DNA of 64,000 nucleotides. Source: Leeuwenhoekiella aequorea (GTDB lineage: Bacteria > Bacteroidota > Bacteroidia > Flavobacteriales > Flavobacteriaceae). The stretch is from NCBI RefSeq assembly GCF_004104375.1, contig NZ_QOVM01000005.1, forward strand, positions 186,001 to 250,000, in the 5' to 3' direction. The notes beneath the pieces were generated by a model that was not told where the DNA came from, did no database searches, and worked only from the letters and a program-made list of their open reading frames with translations. The position numbers were made by a program, and so were the translations under genes. Shown here one piece after another: positions 4,300 through 30,952 of the stretch. Positions within the stretch are counted from its first letter, which is position 1; each line of letters starts with the position of its first letter.

Positions 4300-6084
4300 A
4301 TGAAAAAATACATCATTTATACCGCAATTTTAGCCATAGGATTGGTCTTGGGCTATGTCTTTTTTGGCCCTTCTGCGGAAGGTTCCGTAAACAGCAAGAA
4401 AGTAACAGATTTGAGCGAAGACGTTAACCACTCCGAAGAACATCAAATGTGGACCTGTTCAATGCACCCACAGATTATGCAACCAGAACCTGGCGACTGC
4501 CCAATATGCGGTATGGATTTAATTCCCGCCGAAACTGGTGCGGAAGGGCTTGCAATGAACGAAATAAAAATGAGCGACAATGCAATGGCACTGGCGAATA
4601 TCCAAACTACAATTGTAGGAAATATTTCAGGAACCGACGATAACAAAATAACACTTTCCGGAAAAATAATGGCCAACGAAGAAGCCAATGCGGTACAGGC
4701 AAGCTATTTTGAAGGACGTATTGAAAAGTTGAATGTCAATTTCACGGGCGAAGAAGTACGAAAAGGACAGTTGTTGGCAACGATTTATGCACCAACGCTC
4801 GTTGCTGCCCAACAAGAACTTTTAACTGCTTCTGACCTGAAAGAATCACAACCAGGTTTATACAAAGCAGTTCGAAACAAATTAAAATTGTGGAAACTTT
4901 CTGAAAGCCAAATAGACCAAATAGAAAGTTCTGGCAAGGTGCGGGAAAATTTTCCGATTTATGCAACTGTTTCAGGCACCGTTTCCCAAAAAATGGCAGA
5001 AGAAGGCGACTATGTAAAACAAGGCCAGCCCATTGTTAAAGTAAGTGATTTGGGTACTGTTTGGGCAATGTTTGACGCCTACGAAAGACAAATCTCGCAA
5101 CTAAAGGAAGGTCAAAAGGTAACAATCACTAGTAACGCTTATCCCAATAAAGAATTTGAAGCATCAGTTTCATTTATCGACCCTACTTTGAATACAAAGT
5201 CCAGAACTGTTTCAGTGCGCGCCACATTGAACAATAAGGAAAATCTATTAAAACCAGGAATGTTCGTAACCGCAAAAGTGGCAATGACAAAAGGCAATAC
5301 TATGGAAATTGCGATAAGCATACCTGCAACGGCAGTAATGTGGACAGGCGAGCGCTCATTGGTGTACGTAAAGACCAATCCCAATGAACCCGTTTTTGAA
5401 ATGCAAGAAGTGACTTTGGGAACGAAAAATGGTGAGAACTATACCATTATCGAAGGGCTTTCTAACGGCGATGAAGTGGTAACCAACGGAACATTTACCG
5501 TAGATGCCGCTGCACAGTTACAAGGAAAAAAATCTATGATGAATGCATCAGGTGGTAAAACAATGACAGGTCACGAAGGGCATTTGGGAATGGAAAATTT
5601 AAACAACACAGTTGATGCCGCCAAGCGTATGGATGTAGCTTCCAAATTCCAAGAGCAGCTCAAAACAGTTTTTGATGATTATATTATGCTTAAAACAGCA
5701 TTGACAAACGACCAAAGTGAAAAAGCAAAAACGGCCGCACAGACCTTACAGAAAAGTTTAACACAAGTTGACCTTGCTTTGCTAAAGGATAAAAATGCGA
5801 ATAACCACTGGGCGCAACTTGAAAAAGAATTGAAGGCTTCCTCAAATGAAATTGCCCAGACATCCGATATTAAAACCCAGAGAAATCATTTTATCAGTCT
5901 TTCAGCACACCTCATAAATGCAATGAAAGCGTTTGGCATCAACCAAGAAATTTACATAGATTTTTGTCCAATGGCAAATAATAATGAAGGCGCATATTGG
6001 TTGAGCACGGAAAAAGAAATACAAAATCCCTACTACGGACAAGCAATGCTAAACTGTGGTGAAGTAACAGAAACCGTACAATAG
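4300..6084 (+). CDS. cusB: CusB-like RND efflux periplasmic adaptor with HMBD and DUF3347 domains
   Basis: A 594-aa membrane-fusion protein of the copper/silver CusCBA type. It has an N-terminal signal anchor (about 5-24), an HMBD with WTCSMHPQI...CPICGMDLIP (about 50-76), barrel-sandwich and beta-barrel adaptor domains (about 90-400), and a C-terminal DUF3347 four-helix domain (about 470-590) ending in an FCPMA...NPYYG segment typical of Bacteroidetes adaptors. Adaptors normally need a CusA pump and an outer-membrane channel, and neither is encoded nearby in the window. They may lie to the left in the element, or the protein may act as a periplasmic metal carrier; the first is more likely. 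Confidence 0.88.
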   Translation: MKKYIIYTAILAIGLVLGYVFFGPSAEGSVNSKKVTDLSEDVNHSEEHQMWTCSMHPQIMQPEPGDCPICGMDLIPAETGAEGLAMNEIKMSDNAMALANIQTTIVGNISGTDDNKITLSGKIMANEEANAVQASYFEGRIEKLNVNFTGEEVRKGQLLATIYAPTLVAAQQELLTASDLKESQPGLYKAVRNKLKLWKLSESQIDQIESSGKVRENFPIYATVSGTVSQKMAEEGDYVKQGQPIVKVSDLGTVWAMFDAYERQISQLKEGQKVTITSNAYPNKEFEASVSFIDPTLNTKSRTVSVRATLNNKENLLKPGMFVTAKVAMTKGNTMEIAISIPATAVMWTGERSLVYVKTNPNEPVFEMQEVTLGTKNGENYTIIEGLSNGDEVVTNGTFTVDAAAQLQGKKSMMNASGGKTMTGHEGHLGMENLNNTVDAAKRMDVASKFQEQLKTVFDDYIMLKTALTNDQSEKAKTAAQTLQKSLTQVDLALLKDKNANNHWAQLEKELKASSNEIAQTSDIKTQRNHFISLSAHLINAMKAFGINQEIYIDFCPMANNNEGAYWLSTEKEIQNPYYGQAMLNCGEVTETVQ

Positions 6085-25711: not shown

Positions 25712-27136
25712 ATGAAAGCAAAGCCCGAGGCACGATTAGAGTTGACTGAAGCAGAAATGCGTGATTATGGTTATAAAGTTATTGACTCGATCATTGCTCA
25801 TCACCTCAATCAAGAAGATAAAAAGCCGGTATCGCTTGCAACTCGTAAAGAAATGGATTCTCTCTTAGGAGAAGATATTCCTGAACACGCCACAGCGGTA
25901 GATAGCGTTCTGGAAACCGTGATGGAAAAAGTAATGCCGTATACAAACCTATTAAGCCATCCTAAATTCTTTTCCTTTGTACCAGGACCTAGTAATTATG
26001 TAAGTGCAATTGCAGATACCCTAGCTACGGGATTTAATGTTTTTTCAGGAGGGTGGGTAGCCTCTCCTGCAGCGGCAGAGCTAGAGATTTTAACCATTAA
26101 CTGGCTGTTAAATCTTTATGGATTTCCTCAGAAAAAAGGAGGAGGTATATTTACCAGCGGTGGTTCGATGGCAAATTTAACCGCTTTAGTTACTGCTCGT
26201 AATATTAAATGCGGAGATGATTATTCTAAAGCAGTTATTTATTTATCAGATCAGGCACATTCTTCAAATATAAAAGCCATTCGCATAATAGGTTTCAGAA
26301 AAGATCAAATACGCATCATTCCTACTGATGGAGAATTTAAGTTTAGTTTAAACAAACTAAAAAATGCAATCAATAAAGATAGACTAGCAGGTCTTGTTCC
26401 TTTCTGTTTATTGGCTTCTGCTGGTACAACAAATACGGGCACTGTAGATCAACTTCAAGACCTTGGGGCAATTGCAAAAAGTGAAAATTTATGGTTTCAC
26501 GTAGATGGTGCTTACGGTGGAGCAGTAATTTTAGCAAAGAACGGAAAGCAACTTTTAAAAGGTATTGAAAAAGCAGACTCGCTTACTGTAGATCCGCATA
26601 AATGGTTTTATCAACCTTATGAAATGGGTTGTTTACTCGTGCGTAATCACAAATGGTTGAGTGGGACATTTACAGAAAAGCCAGAATACTTAAAAGATAT
26701 AGAAGGCAATAGTTCTGAAATTAATTTCTATGATCACGGCATACAATTAACCAGACGTTTTAGAGCACTTAAATTTTATATGAGTGTAAAAACGTTTGGG
26801 TTAAAAGCGTTTCGAGAAGCGGTACAATACAATTTTGATCTGTGCGAAGAAGTAGAGCGTATATTACGTAAATCGCCAAAGTGGGAAGTTGTTTCTCCCG
26901 CGACTTTAGCGATTATCAATTTTAGATACAACCCGATAGATCAAAATCTTTCTGAGCAGGAACTCGATAAATTAAATTCAAGAATTTCTGAAAAAGTTGT
27001 TTCATCCAGAGAAGCTATGCTGGTAACCACTATCTTAAACAAACAAACGGTTTTAAGAATGTGCTTAATTAACCCAAGAACTACTTTAGCACACGTTCTA
27101 GAAACTATTGAATTATGTGAAAAAATGGCGGAATAA
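25712..27136 (+). CDS. PLP-dependent group II decarboxylase (aromatic amino acid / glutamate type)
   Basis: A 474-aa fold-type I decarboxylase. The cofactor lysine is K297 in TVDPHKWFYQ. Upstream are the substrate-loop GGSMANLTAL and HVDGAYGG (cofactor Asp), both typical of the DDC/GAD group. The exact substrate (tyrosine, tryptophan, 2,4-diaminobutyrate or other) cannot be read from the sequence. A TAGTTTTG -7-like box lies at 25690-25697. Its last five codons, including the stop, are inside a palindrome shared with the convergent kinase gene. Confidence 0.88.
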   Translation: MKAKPEARLELTEAEMRDYGYKVIDSIIAHHLNQEDKKPVSLATRKEMDSLLGEDIPEHATAVDSVLETVMEKVMPYTNLLSHPKFFSFVPGPSNYVSAIADTLATGFNVFSGGWVASPAAAELEILTINWLLNLYGFPQKKGGGIFTSGGSMANLTALVTARNIKCGDDYSKAVIYLSDQAHSSNIKAIRIIGFRKDQIRIIPTDGEFKFSLNKLKNAINKDRLAGLVPFCLLASAGTTNTGTVDQLQDLGAIAKSENLWFHVDGAYGGAVILAKNGKQLLKGIEKADSLTVDPHKWFYQPYEMGCLLVRNHKWLSGTFTEKPEYLKDIEGNSSEINFYDHGIQLTRRFRALKFYMSVKTFGLKAFREAVQYNFDLCEEVERILRKSPKWEVVSPATLAIINFRYNPIDQNLSEQELDKLNSRISEKVVSSREAMLVTTILNKQTVLRMCLINPRTTLAHVLETIELCEKMAE

Positions 27137-27151
27137 TTATTCCGCCATTTT
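27122..27151. terminator. Perfect 30-bp palindrome shared by two convergent stop codons
   Basis: The 15 bases 27122-27136 (AAAATGGCGGAATAA) are exactly complementary to 27137-27151. Both strands read Lys-Met-Ala-Glu-stop in frame, so the decarboxylase and the kinase end identically. As RNA it folds into a GC-cored hairpin flanked by A and U tracts, a bidirectional terminator inside two coding regions with no spacer. Confidence 0.85.
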
Positions 27152-28030
27152 CTCTGCGATAATTTCTGGAGTAATTTTTGAATTTGCTCCTTTTTGACCG
27201 GCTACAAGTGCACCTAATGCGCAAGCAAAAGCTAAAGCATCGTCTGGCGAACTCTTTTCTAAAAATAACTGGCAGATTAAACCAGCTAGAAAGGAATCTC
27301 CTGCGCCTACAGTATCTACAACTTTAGTACTATAACCAGCGTGAGTGTGTAAACTACCGTCTTTATATAAAACTGCTCCTGCATCGCCGCAGGTAATGCA
27401 AATAATATTAGTATTAGTAAGCTTACTTATTATCTCAAGCTGGTCTTCCATCACTTTACTTTCTATCTCTAAATGAGCAGCAATTTCAATGAGTTCTTCA
27501 TCATTCATTTTGATCATTTGCGCTTGTTTCATAAACTGAACCAGGTGCTCTAGTTTATAATGTGGTGCTCTAAGATTTACATCAAAAATTGCAAATTTTG
27601 TCTGCGGAAGCAATTCTTTTAGTGTAGTGCGTGTAGTGCTATTGCGAGCAGCGAGTGAGCCAAAAATAAACAAGTCTGCATGCGCAACAGCCTCTTGATT
27701 TGCCTGTGTAAGTTTAATATTATCCCATGCGACCGGACTTTTAATTTTATACGAAGCGCTTCCTTGCTCATTGAGGGAAACCAGAACCTTGCCTGTTTCT
27801 AATTCATCATCTTCTTGAATAAGATCTTGGTTGAGGTTAAATTCATCAATTGCGGCACGTGTTTCTTCTGCGAGGCCATCTGTCCCAAGGCGGCTTATCA
27901 TACGCATAGAAGCACCTAAACTTTTCATTCTCAAACATAAATTAAGTGGAGCGCCTCCCAGTGATTTTCCATCTGGAAATACATCCCATAAAATTTCGCC
28001 AAAGCTTATTGCAGTAAGTGATTGTTTCAT
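27137..28030 (-). CDS. PfkB-family carbohydrate kinase, probable fructokinase
   Basis: A 297-aa ribokinase-fold enzyme with SLGGAPLNLCLRMKSLG near the N-terminus and the catalytic loop DTVGAGDSF, base Asp245. Homologues beside GH32 and sugar transporters phosphorylate fructose. It starts one base downstream of the transporter stop on the minus strand, so the GH32-transporter-kinase order makes one operon for release, uptake and activation of fructose. Its C-terminal KMAE lies in the shared palindrome. Confidence 0.87.
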   Translation of the reverse strand: MKQSLTAISFGEILWDVFPDGKSLGGAPLNLCLRMKSLGASMRMISRLGTDGLAEETRAAIDEFNLNQDLIQEDDELETGKVLVSLNEQGSASYKIKSPVAWDNIKLTQANQEAVAHADLFIFGSLAARNSTTRTTLKELLPQTKFAIFDVNLRAPHYKLEHLVQFMKQAQMIKMNDEELIEIAAHLEIESKVMEDQLEIISKLTNTNIICITCGDAGAVLYKDGSLHTHAGYSTKVVDTVGAGDSFLAGLICQLFLEKSSPDDALAFACALGALVAGQKGANSKITPEIIAEKMAE

Positions 28031-28031
28031 T

Positions 28032-29369
28032 CTAGTTTAATAATTTATCTTCTAATTCTTCGAGTGAGATGCCTTTAGTCTCAGGCATCATAAATTTTGT
28101 AAATAGCAATTGCAGAACCATCATGCCTGCAAAAAATGCAAAAATGGGCCAGGGATTGTCTTTAAAAATCCCATCCTCTCCATCTAAAAATACGGGTGTT
28201 AATAATGTGATTAAAGCCGCAAAAACCCAGTGTGTTCCGGTTCCCCACGATTGACCGTAAGCGCGTACTTTATTCGGGAAAATTTCAGAAATAAAAACCC
28301 AAATAACAGCACCTTGTCCTATAGCGTGAGAGGCAATAAACATTAGAATAAATGCTAGTAAAAGTGTTGAATTTGCACTCGTATAAAAGCACCACGCCAC
28401 ACTAGCGAGACTTATGATATAGCCTAACGATCCTATAAACATAAGTGTGCGTCTGCCTAATTTATCGATTAGACCTAAACCTACAAATGTAAATAAGAGA
28501 TTTATAACCCCTATTGAAATAGAACTGAATAGTGAATCTTCTGTCGCTAATCCCGCTTTAACTAAAATTTCGGGAGCATAGTACAGTATAAAATTGATAC
28601 CAGAAACCTGGTTAAAAAAAGCAATTAGAAATGCGAGAATTAATGGTTTTTTTAATCGCTTTGTAAACAGCTTAACTTCATCTGAAGTTTTAGCTAGTTC
28701 GTTCTTTATATGATCAATTTTTTGTTGAGCTTCGGCACTGGGATAAACGCGATTTAAAATTGTGAATGCTTCTTTTTCTGCTTTATGTTTATGTAAAAGC
28801 CATCGCGGACTTTCTGGAACACCTAGCACAAGCAAAATATATAAAATGGCAGGAATGCTTTCAACCCCCAACATCCATCTCCAGTCATTAGAACCTTGAA
28901 AACCTTCTAGAAGGTAATTTGAAAAGAATGCAATTAAAATTCCAAAGACAATATTAAACTGGTACAAAGCAACAAGTTTGCCTCTGTTTGATGCAGTAGA
29001 AATTTCAGAAATATAGGTGGGAGCAGCTACAGAAGAGGCACCTACGCCTACACCGCCAATAAACCTAAAGAATGAAAATAGATAGGGATCATGAGAGAGC
29101 GCTGAGCCCATTGCTGATATTAAATAAAGTATACCAATCCAAAATAATGTCTTTTTCCTTCCAAAACGATCACAAGGAATACCTCCTGTGAGTGAACCCA
29201 AGACTGTTCCCCATAGTGCCATAGACATAATGAATAGACCGTGAAATAATGGAGATAAATTCCATAATTCCCGTACAGGTAAATTTGCACCAGAAATAAC
29301 AACGGTATCAAAGCCAAAGAGAAAACCGGCAAGTGCAACTGTGATCGACCATTTTTGAACTGCTTTCAT
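28032..29369 (-). CDS. MFS sugar transporter (sugar porter family)
   Basis: A 445-aa protein with 12 predicted helices. The sugar-porter signatures are present: DRFGRKKT after helix 2, PESPRWLLHKHK at the end of the first half, QVSGINFILYYAPEI in helix 7, DKLGRRTL after helix 8 and PETKGISLEELE at the C-terminus. It is a proton symporter or facilitator of the inner membrane; by its neighbours the substrate is fructose or a fructoside. It lies between GH32 (20 bp upstream) and fructokinase (1 bp). Confidence 0.93.
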   Translation of the reverse strand: MKAVQKWSITVALAGFLFGFDTVVISGANLPVRELWNLSPLFHGLFIMSMALWGTVLGSLTGGIPCDRFGRKKTLFWIGILYLISAMGSALSHDPYLFSFFRFIGGVGVGASSVAAPTYISEISTASNRGKLVALYQFNIVFGILIAFFSNYLLEGFQGSNDWRWMLGVESIPAILYILLVLGVPESPRWLLHKHKAEKEAFTILNRVYPSAEAQQKIDHIKNELAKTSDEVKLFTKRLKKPLILAFLIAFFNQVSGINFILYYAPEILVKAGLATEDSLFSSISIGVINLLFTFVGLGLIDKLGRRTLMFIGSLGYIISLASVAWCFYTSANSTLLLAFILMFIASHAIGQGAVIWVFISEIFPNKVRAYGQSWGTGTHWVFAALITLLTPVFLDGEDGIFKDNPWPIFAFFAGMMVLQLLFTKFMMPETKGISLEELEDKLLN

Positions 29370-29389: not shown

Positions 29390-30952
29390 TTACCAGATAG
29401 AAGGGATGTGTATAATACTTAACTCCTTTATTTCATCTTTTGTTGCTAAGCTAAAATTGGTAAAAGCATCATTAGGAAAAAACTGGGCTGTGAGTGCATT
29501 AGAGCCACCATCTGCAAAAAATTCTATTGATGAGGAATCTAAATATATGGCAAAATCACTAGCCGTATTATCTTTAAAAATTGCCGGAGCTTTCATTAAT
29601 GGAGAAGCAAATTTATCTGAAAAAGAAACCTGCCCACTTTTACTGCGGTCTAAACTATATTCTTTTGTAGTTGCATTATAATTGATAGCAAGAAATTCAC
29701 CTTTGGTGTTGCTAAGCTTTAATTCAAAATTAGAGAGCGGTTTTGGCAGTTTGAAGGATATCTTTGATTGATTTAAGTTAGGATCTGTAAACTTTGTAAC
29801 ACCCGATTCTTTTTTAATTTCTGGAGAACTAGTATCTAGACCCGCTGTTAATTCGGGTAGAGGGTTGTTTGATAGAAAATAATCAGTTGTTTTATGTAAT
29901 TCAAGTTTACGAGGGAGGGTCATTGCACTGCGCCAAGCTTCAGTAGGAGTTTCTTGTCCATACTCCCAATTACTCATCCAACCTATAAAAATGCGCTCTT
30001 CTTGCGGTAAATTGTTATACGTTATTCCTGCATAATTATCACGACCGAGATCGATCCACTTTTCATCTTGTTGATTTGATGTAAATGTTTTTCCGTCAAA
30101 ATCACCTACAAAATATTGTGTGCCAGATCCACCATTGGGAGCGCCTGGATTTATACTTATTAACAGGATCCATTTTGTTTCTCCCGTTTCAGCAATCGTT
30201 AGCGGAAATAAATCTGGACATTCCCATACGCCTCCGTGAGCCCCACGATCTCTACCAAATTCGCTTAAATACGTCCAGTCTATTAAATTATCTGAATTAT
30301 AAAACATCGCATAATCCCCGGCAACTAATATTAAAATCCATTTTTGAGTACTCGTATCCCAGAAGACTTTAGGATCTCTAAAATCTACCAATTTATCGGT
30401 ATTGGGAACAACAGGATTATTTTTATACTTGGTAAATGTTTTGCCATTATCAAGACTATAAGCAATACCTTGATATTGATAATCTGTGGTTTTAGCTTCG
30501 GCTCCTTTAGGATCGTGGTAGGTGAACATGGCTACTAATGGTGGATTTTCTATAGTGCCTAATCCAGATGAATTTAAAGAATCTACTACAGCACTGCCTG
30601 AAAATATATAGCCTAGAGAATCTGGAGCCAATGCTACAGGTTCATTTTCCCAATCTTTTAAATTTTTACTTGTTGCGTGGCCCCAATGCATAGGACCCCA
30701 AATTGAAGACTCCGGGTGATACTGAAAGTACAAATGATACGTTCCATTATGGTAAACAAGTCCGTTAGGATCATTCATCCAATGTGCTTCTGGAGAATAA
30801 TGATATTGTGGGCGAAAATTTTCGTTGTATGTCATCTCTGTAGTATCTTTAGGCTTTATTATTGACTTGTTATTTTCCTTACAGGATATAAGGACTATGA
30901 ATAATGAAAAAATGGCTATCTCTTTCAATGTTAGATGTTTTAGATTAATCAT
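29390..30952 (-). CDS. GH32 lipoprotein (invertase/levanase/fructan hydrolase)
   Basis: A 520-aa glycosidase that cleaves terminal beta-fructofuranosides of sucrose, inulin or levan. Cys24 in LISC is the lipid anchor. The catalytic residues are visible: NDPNG with nucleophile Asp61, FRDPKV (transition-state Asp) and WECPDLF (acid/base Glu). A C-terminal beta-sandwich with AIYLDSSSIEFFADGG follows. As a lipoprotein it works in the periplasm or at the surface and hands fructose to the MFS transporter. Sucrose versus fructan preference is not decidable by eye. Confidence 0.93.
   Translation of the reverse strand: MINLKHLTLKEIAIFSLFIVLISCKENNKSIIKPKDTTEMTYNENFRPQYHYSPEAHWMNDPNGLVYHNGTYHLYFQYHPESSIWGPMHWGHATSKNLKDWENEPVALAPDSLGYIFSGSAVVDSLNSSGLGTIENPPLVAMFTYHDPKGAEAKTTDYQYQGIAYSLDNGKTFTKYKNNPVVPNTDKLVDFRDPKVFWDTSTQKWILILVAGDYAMFYNSDNLIDWTYLSEFGRDRGAHGGVWECPDLFPLTIAETGETKWILLISINPGAPNGGSGTQYFVGDFDGKTFTSNQQDEKWIDLGRDNYAGITYNNLPQEERIFIGWMSNWEYGQETPTEAWRSAMTLPRKLELHKTTDYFLSNNPLPELTAGLDTSSPEIKKESGVTKFTDPNLNQSKISFKLPKPLSNFELKLSNTKGEFLAINYNATTKEYSLDRSKSGQVSFSDKFASPLMKAPAIFKDNTASDFAIYLDSSSIEFFADGGSNALTAQFFPNDAFTNFSLATKDEIKELSIIHIPSIW

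Follow-up and report, generated by a model that had tools for sequence, protein, structure and literature searches.

In the marine bacterium Leeuwenhoekiella aequorea, the convergent genes of a PLP-dependent decarboxylase (dec) and a PfkB-family sugar kinase meet in a perfect 30-bp palindrome (Table 1; positions are those of the window, i.e. the whole stretch of 64,000 nucleotides analysed), which probably acts as a bidirectional intrinsic (Rho-independent) terminator located inside the reading frames of both genes; judging from the sequence, we put the probability of this reading at about 75%. It is favoured because the hairpin energy and the T-rich tails match the form of many of the genome's other predicted terminators. 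The junction is real, rare and kept in a part of the genus; its sequence, predicted fold, rarity and partial conservation are direct observations. Bidirectional terminators are already known, and what sets this one apart is a whole stem-loop that codes for two genes in mirror phase, with the stops at the loop.

Table 1. Features at and around the dec/kinase junction (window positions)
Feature	Position	Strand	Details
PLP-dependent decarboxylase gene (dec)	25712..27136	+	474 aa; tail ..ELCEKMAE-TAA; Pfam PF00282 Pyridoxal_deC, E 1.2e-73
PfkB-family sugar kinase gene	27137..28030	-	297 aa; tail ..IIAEKMAE-TAA; Pfam PF00294 PfkB, E 1.4e-40
Sugar transporter gene, upstream of kinase	28032-29369	- (same as kinase)	PF00083
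GH32 gene, upstream of kinase beyond transporter	29390-30952	- (same as kinase)	PF00251
Perfect 30-bp palindrome	27122..27151	both	RNA of either strand: 13 pairs + 4-nt loop
Extended inverted repeat	27119..27154	both	one mismatched pair; takes in A/T tracts
Core stem-loop	27126..27147	both	TGGCGGAATAATTATTCCGCCA; A/T tracts trimmed off
U-tract of decarboxylase transcript	27148..27154	+	TTTTCTC
U-tract of kinase transcript	27119..27125	-	TTTTTTC on minus strand
Abutting stop codons	27134..27139	+ and -	TAA (27134-27136, +) and TAA (27139-27137, -); in + beside the loop

The palindrome reads AAAATGGCGGAATAA to the left and TTATTCCGCCATTTT to the right of an axis between 27136 and 27137, and according to the ORF coordinates 0 bases separate the two stop codons. 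The original prediction of an exact palindrome, abutting stops and two proteins ending in KMAE agrees with both the sequence and the ORFs; its statement that the last five codons of each gene lie within the palindrome holds for four codons plus the stop, while the fifth shared residue, E, is encoded just outside the 30 bp, by GAA in one gene and by GAG in its partner. The two unrelated proteins thereby share the C-terminal sequence EKMAE. The common KMAE arises because the palindrome axis falls between the two stops in mirror phase, a geometry that makes codon n, counted from the end of dec, identical to its counterpart in the kinase gene. The identical tails call for no separate explanation, being a consequence of the position of the palindrome and no second finding, and a repeat at the dec gene of another genome (G007, below) codes two different tails. 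That the kinase tail was copied from that of dec was considered and rejected, as KM-E tails are present also in congeners in which a spacer separates the genes.

The rarity of the arrangement was assessed in an 800-kb sample of the genome, with genes called by a simple longest-ORF script and not by a gene finder. Among 645 gene tails, matches of 15 bases or longer were found in 4 of 415,380 ordered pairs, i.e. in two unordered pairs: dec/kinase, and the copies of a duplicated 165-aa gene, whose tails are identical. The tail identity of dec and the kinase is not due to chance. The same sample contains 79 perfect inverted repeats (arms of at least 10, with at least 3 G+C), of which 62 are intergenic, 10 lie over one gene end, 6 lie within a gene and a single one spans two gene ends; the latter is the dec/kinase palindrome. 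The 30-mer occurs once in the whole genome, which rules out a repeated, REP-like element, and Rfam gave 0 matches at the gathering score within 26000-28200. A search for the KMAE-palindrome pattern, with one mismatch allowed, retrieved 2 of 299 genomes of the family, both from Leeuwenhoekiella (a genus represented in this search by the source genome, G000, and G009 only).

Abutting convergent genes as such are not unusual: 71 pairs with a gap of at most 5 were found in 1.6 Mb of three congeners (G000, G001 and G011, genes called as above). A fold of -14 kcal/mol or lower on both strands was predicted for just two of them, namely the dec/kinase junction of G000 and its G001 orthologue. Perfect hairpins of at least 8 are present at the junction in 1/71 abutting pairs, compared to 37/59 where the gap measures 31-120 (Fisher p 6e-16), and with both ORFs of at least 150 aa the figures are 1/48 and 28/41, respectively. 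The G001 orthologue, with its interrupted stem, counts among the 70 pairs that have no perfect hairpin; the size of this group indicates that abutting pairs generally need none.

The predicted folding energy of the junction RNA (60 nt) is -22.9 kcal/mol on one strand (z -6.2) and -23.4 kcal/mol on the other (z -6.8), with 0/200 shuffles as good. As expected for an intrinsic terminator, a G+C stem with a short loop (13 pairs, 5 of them G-C, and 4 nt) is followed by a U-tract, with T at 5/7 positions after the stem on the plus strand and 6/7 on the minus strand once the A-T pairs are trimmed. A stable hairpin with a T-tract on each strand, at the point where facing genes meet, corresponds to the form of a bidirectional terminator, and the succession of A-tract, G+C stem and T-tract recurs in many of the genome's other predicted terminators. 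A simple promoter/terminator scan, which follows other rules, did not list the junction hairpin among its predicted sites. The earlier description of a terminator hairpin coding on both strands stands as far as the predicted hairpin and the missing spacer are concerned; termination, in both directions, would be its likely consequence.

According to the proposed mechanism, each transcript would fold its own last four codons and stop together with 15 antisense bases of the facing gene into the 13-pair hairpin, followed by the U-tract, and polymerase arriving from either side would be released about 12-20 nt past the stop codon, which would be retained in the mRNA. The stops of both genes lie at the loop, so that in each transcript the 3' arm comes after the stop. 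Since the last bases of the coding sequence form the 5' arm, a ribosome following closely behind the polymerase would hold the hairpin open; the terminator should therefore be sensitive to translation, working best when translation lags and leaking when the ribosome is close. One may go further and imagine a reciprocal translation-gated terminator, in which, on either mRNA, a ribosome close behind keeps the common hairpin from forming and a well-translated gene is read through into the antisense of its neighbour, poor translation closes the terminator, and the facing genes sense each other's transcription-translation coupling, but we find this extension decidedly improbable.

The stem-loop of E. 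coli arfA yields a non-stop arfA mRNA. A hairpin of this type is ruled out here, as in either transcript the stop comes before the 3' arm. The E. coli mscL-arfA junction (PMC10070815) resembles ours in having tail-to-tail overlapping genes with a stem-loop within coding sequence; that stem-loop (PMC10070815; also annotation and our own folding) lies inside arfA alone, before the arfA stop and downstream of mscL, whereas at the dec/kinase junction the stops are retained and the stem is common to both genes. Bidirectional intrinsic terminators between convergent genes, as far as they are described in PMC7566282, PMC5381666 and PMC1852404, likewise consist of one hairpin with an A-tract and a T-tract serving two facing genes; unlike the wholly coding dec/kinase stem-loop with its stops at the loop, they are placed between the genes. 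Some terminators overlap the preceding gene, and stop-proximal ones are repressed by the ribosome (PMC4824070); the dec/kinase geometry is of the same kind, only more extreme, and constitutes a natural two-gene site, whereas that source used an E. coli reporter carrying the tR2 terminator of lambda. The literature matches listed contained no terminator within both coding sequences of a convergent pair, a weak statement given that subscription journals were mostly outside the search.

The position of the stem relative to the stop codon is unusual too. Predicted stems near gene ends start most often 24-27 nt after the stop, in 39/131 cases in the three congeners (G000, G001, G011) vs 1/23 in E. 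coli (250 kb, same script; Fisher p 0.009), and 20-31 nt after the stop in 68/131 vs 5/23 (Fisher p 0.012). The rule is not strict, with 17/131 stems starting 1-15 nt past the stop, and 4/131 start at the stop or upstream of it, a number that includes the dec/kinase hairpin twice, once per strand. On both strands its stem starts 11 nt before the end of the stop (-11). The sharp 24-27 nt spacing looks like ribosome clearance and is close to the distance required in an E. coli reporter.

In this reporter (PMC4824070), a stop placed 5 bp before the terminator reduced termination from ~90% to <10%, a stop-terminator distance of >27 nt was needed for maximal efficiency, and the loss due to stop proximity was abolished when translation was absent. 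By analogy with these E. coli data, poor termination of a translated gene would be predicted for position -11, and the reporter effect leads us to expect that the dec/kinase terminator works with a lagging ribosome and leaks with a close one. Whether the ribosome lags in these bacteria is indicated differently by two hints. The coding-strand purine fraction (0.539, 0.534 and 0.529 vs 0.51 in the E. coli sample) leans, following the purine-bias argument as given in PMC13323073, towards runaway, loosely coupled transcription, while the stop-to-stem spacing hints at coupling; the two hints disagree. The junction places a probable terminator and two protein ends on the same 30 bases, and its relatives form a series with the hairpin either within the genes or in the space separating them. 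It offers a natural system for testing whether the polymerase runs ahead of the ribosome in Bacteroidota. Efficient termination while both genes are translated would mean that polymerase and ribosome are not tightly coupled there, and poor termination would mean that the site is sensitive to translation.

The dec gene is present in 13/13 Leeuwenhoekiella genomes and the kinase gene faces it in 12. Zero spacer, hairpin and KMAE-like tails occur together in five of the 13 congeners (dec/kinase tails KMAE/KMAE in G000, G003 and G006, QMAE/KMAE in G001, KMAG/KMAE in G009). Another five have spacers of 47-65 nt and tails that are less alike: G010 (47 nt, KMAE/KMRE), G011 (51 nt, SMAE/KMEE), G002 (59 nt, AVAEKI/KMEE), G004 (65 nt, AVAEKI/KMEE) and G005 (57 nt, AVAEEI/KMEE). 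The spacers of G008 and G012 measure 359 nt and 109 nt, and in G007 the kinase gene is found elsewhere and does not face dec. A hairpin is predicted at the junction in 10/10 genomes with a gap of at most 65 nt, its place shifting between the inside of the genes and the space between them (in the five spacer congeners it lies in or beside the spacer and was predicted without a shuffle control). The expected co-occurrence of KMAE and palindrome in relatives is thus borne out by the five zero-spacer genomes and by the less similar tails of those with a spacer, but G010 keeps KMAE on the dec side only, in spite of its spacer, which on the sequence evidence speaks against a strict link of tail with palindrome. 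The same genome comes near to the counter-case originally named, a one-sided KMAE with no hairpin, yet it possesses a separate hairpin in the spacer. In G011 (L. blandensis; L068, ~4420-4490) a hairpin with 13-bp arms is composed of the kinase tail and spacer DNA, and with one arm provided by the kinase tail the predicted kinase terminator is half coding.

Despite considerable divergence of the five zero-spacer taxa (363/475 dec third positions are variable), the last 15 nt contain 3 variable sites in dec and 1 in the kinase gene. As little variation in both 15-nt tails jointly is seen in 577 of 138,474 window pairs; taken singly, the dec tail is ordinary (63/471 windows as little varied) and the kinase tail is low (5/294). 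Pairing is retained in 62/65 stem cells (95.4%). One pair changed on both sides, which was equalled by 293/500 shuffles, so covariation among these five sequences is not significant. In G001, G006 and G009 one stem place is an A-C mismatch on one strand, with G-U at that place on the opposite strand, and G001 has lost also the outermost pair. The Ala codons of dec and kinase are GCG/GCG in G000, GCA/GCA in G003 and G009, and mixed in G001 and G006 (GCA in dec, GCG in the kinase gene, with a G-U pair on the kinase strand), as if two lineages had perfected this pair in opposite ways.

A tree built from both genes divides the zero-spacer taxa into G000+G001 and G006+(G003+G009); a single clade is rejected (p-AU 0.0014), and the zero-spacer state needs at least two changes on this tree, whose deep branch order is unsure (support 47/19 and 72/99) and in which G000 differs in letter make-up; the kinase tree alone does not settle the deep forks. 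Zero spacer was either gained early, with a spacer later inserted in G010/G011, or gained twice. Early gain followed by insertion seems likelier from the sequences, because both groups share the phase and the tails.

The same data bear on explanations other than a terminator in two reading frames. The hairpin could cap the mRNAs without terminating transcription: polymerase would run on until Rho or a head-on collision halted it, and the transcripts would then be trimmed by 3'-5' exonucleases back to the hairpin, which would protect their 3' ends. As 70/71 abutting convergent pairs have no comparable perfect hairpin, other transcript endings must serve them, and a ribosome at the stop would impede co-transcriptional folding (PMC4824070), both of which fit capping; the flanking T-tracts, together with an A-tract/stem/T-tract form that matches other predicted terminators of the genome, do not, and we regard this explanation as unlikely. 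Nor do we give much credit to a coincidence under protein selection, in which ends of the type E-K-hydrophobic-A-E were favoured independently in the two proteins and similar codons yielded the palindrome. Many dec tails of other genera indeed show C-E-x-F-A, the kinase ends in KMEE or KMRE in the spacer congeners, and EKIAS is found within the kinase tail of G007. However, even given KMAE twice, all four synonymous codons would match with a probability of about 0.07 (genome usage), Met occupies the corresponding dec position in 5/80 loci, all from Leeuwenhoekiella (F 44, Y 22, I 3, V 2, H 2, L 2), and the KMAE-like form is absent from the kinase tails in the 13 other-genus matches listed, which makes the coincidence very improbable.

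Template switching perfects quasi-palindromes. Such repair, copying one arm onto the other, could have produced the palindrome as a mutational product devoid of function, and the perfect match of the Ala codons reached by opposite routes, GCG/GCG in G000 vs GCA/GCA in G003 and G009, is what it would leave behind. Every step fits one point mutation equally well, though, and persistence in the face of strong divergence (363/475 dec third positions vary) suggests upkeep, so that a purely mutational account appears highly doubtful. Template switching would explain the origin of the palindrome and not its maintenance, and can be compatible with a bidirectional terminator.

In G007 (MAG SAT51) dec meets a gene for an outer membrane efflux protein (Pfam OEP), with the stops 1 nt apart (L070:4413-4440). 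The inverted repeat at this junction has 11-bp arms and a 6-nt loop and codes the differing tails ..EKFAVA and ..GNMDLQ; its T-tracts are poor and its folding z is only about -3. This genome, a metagenome assembly with contamination 9, serves as an illustration only. In 12 Aquimarina loci (L071, L074, L076, L077, L081, L095, L102, L120, L125, L132, L137 and L140) dec shares 4 nt with another convergent ORF (267-272 aa), and the best perfect arms at these junctions are just 4 or 5 bp. The decarboxylase gene often has abutting partners.
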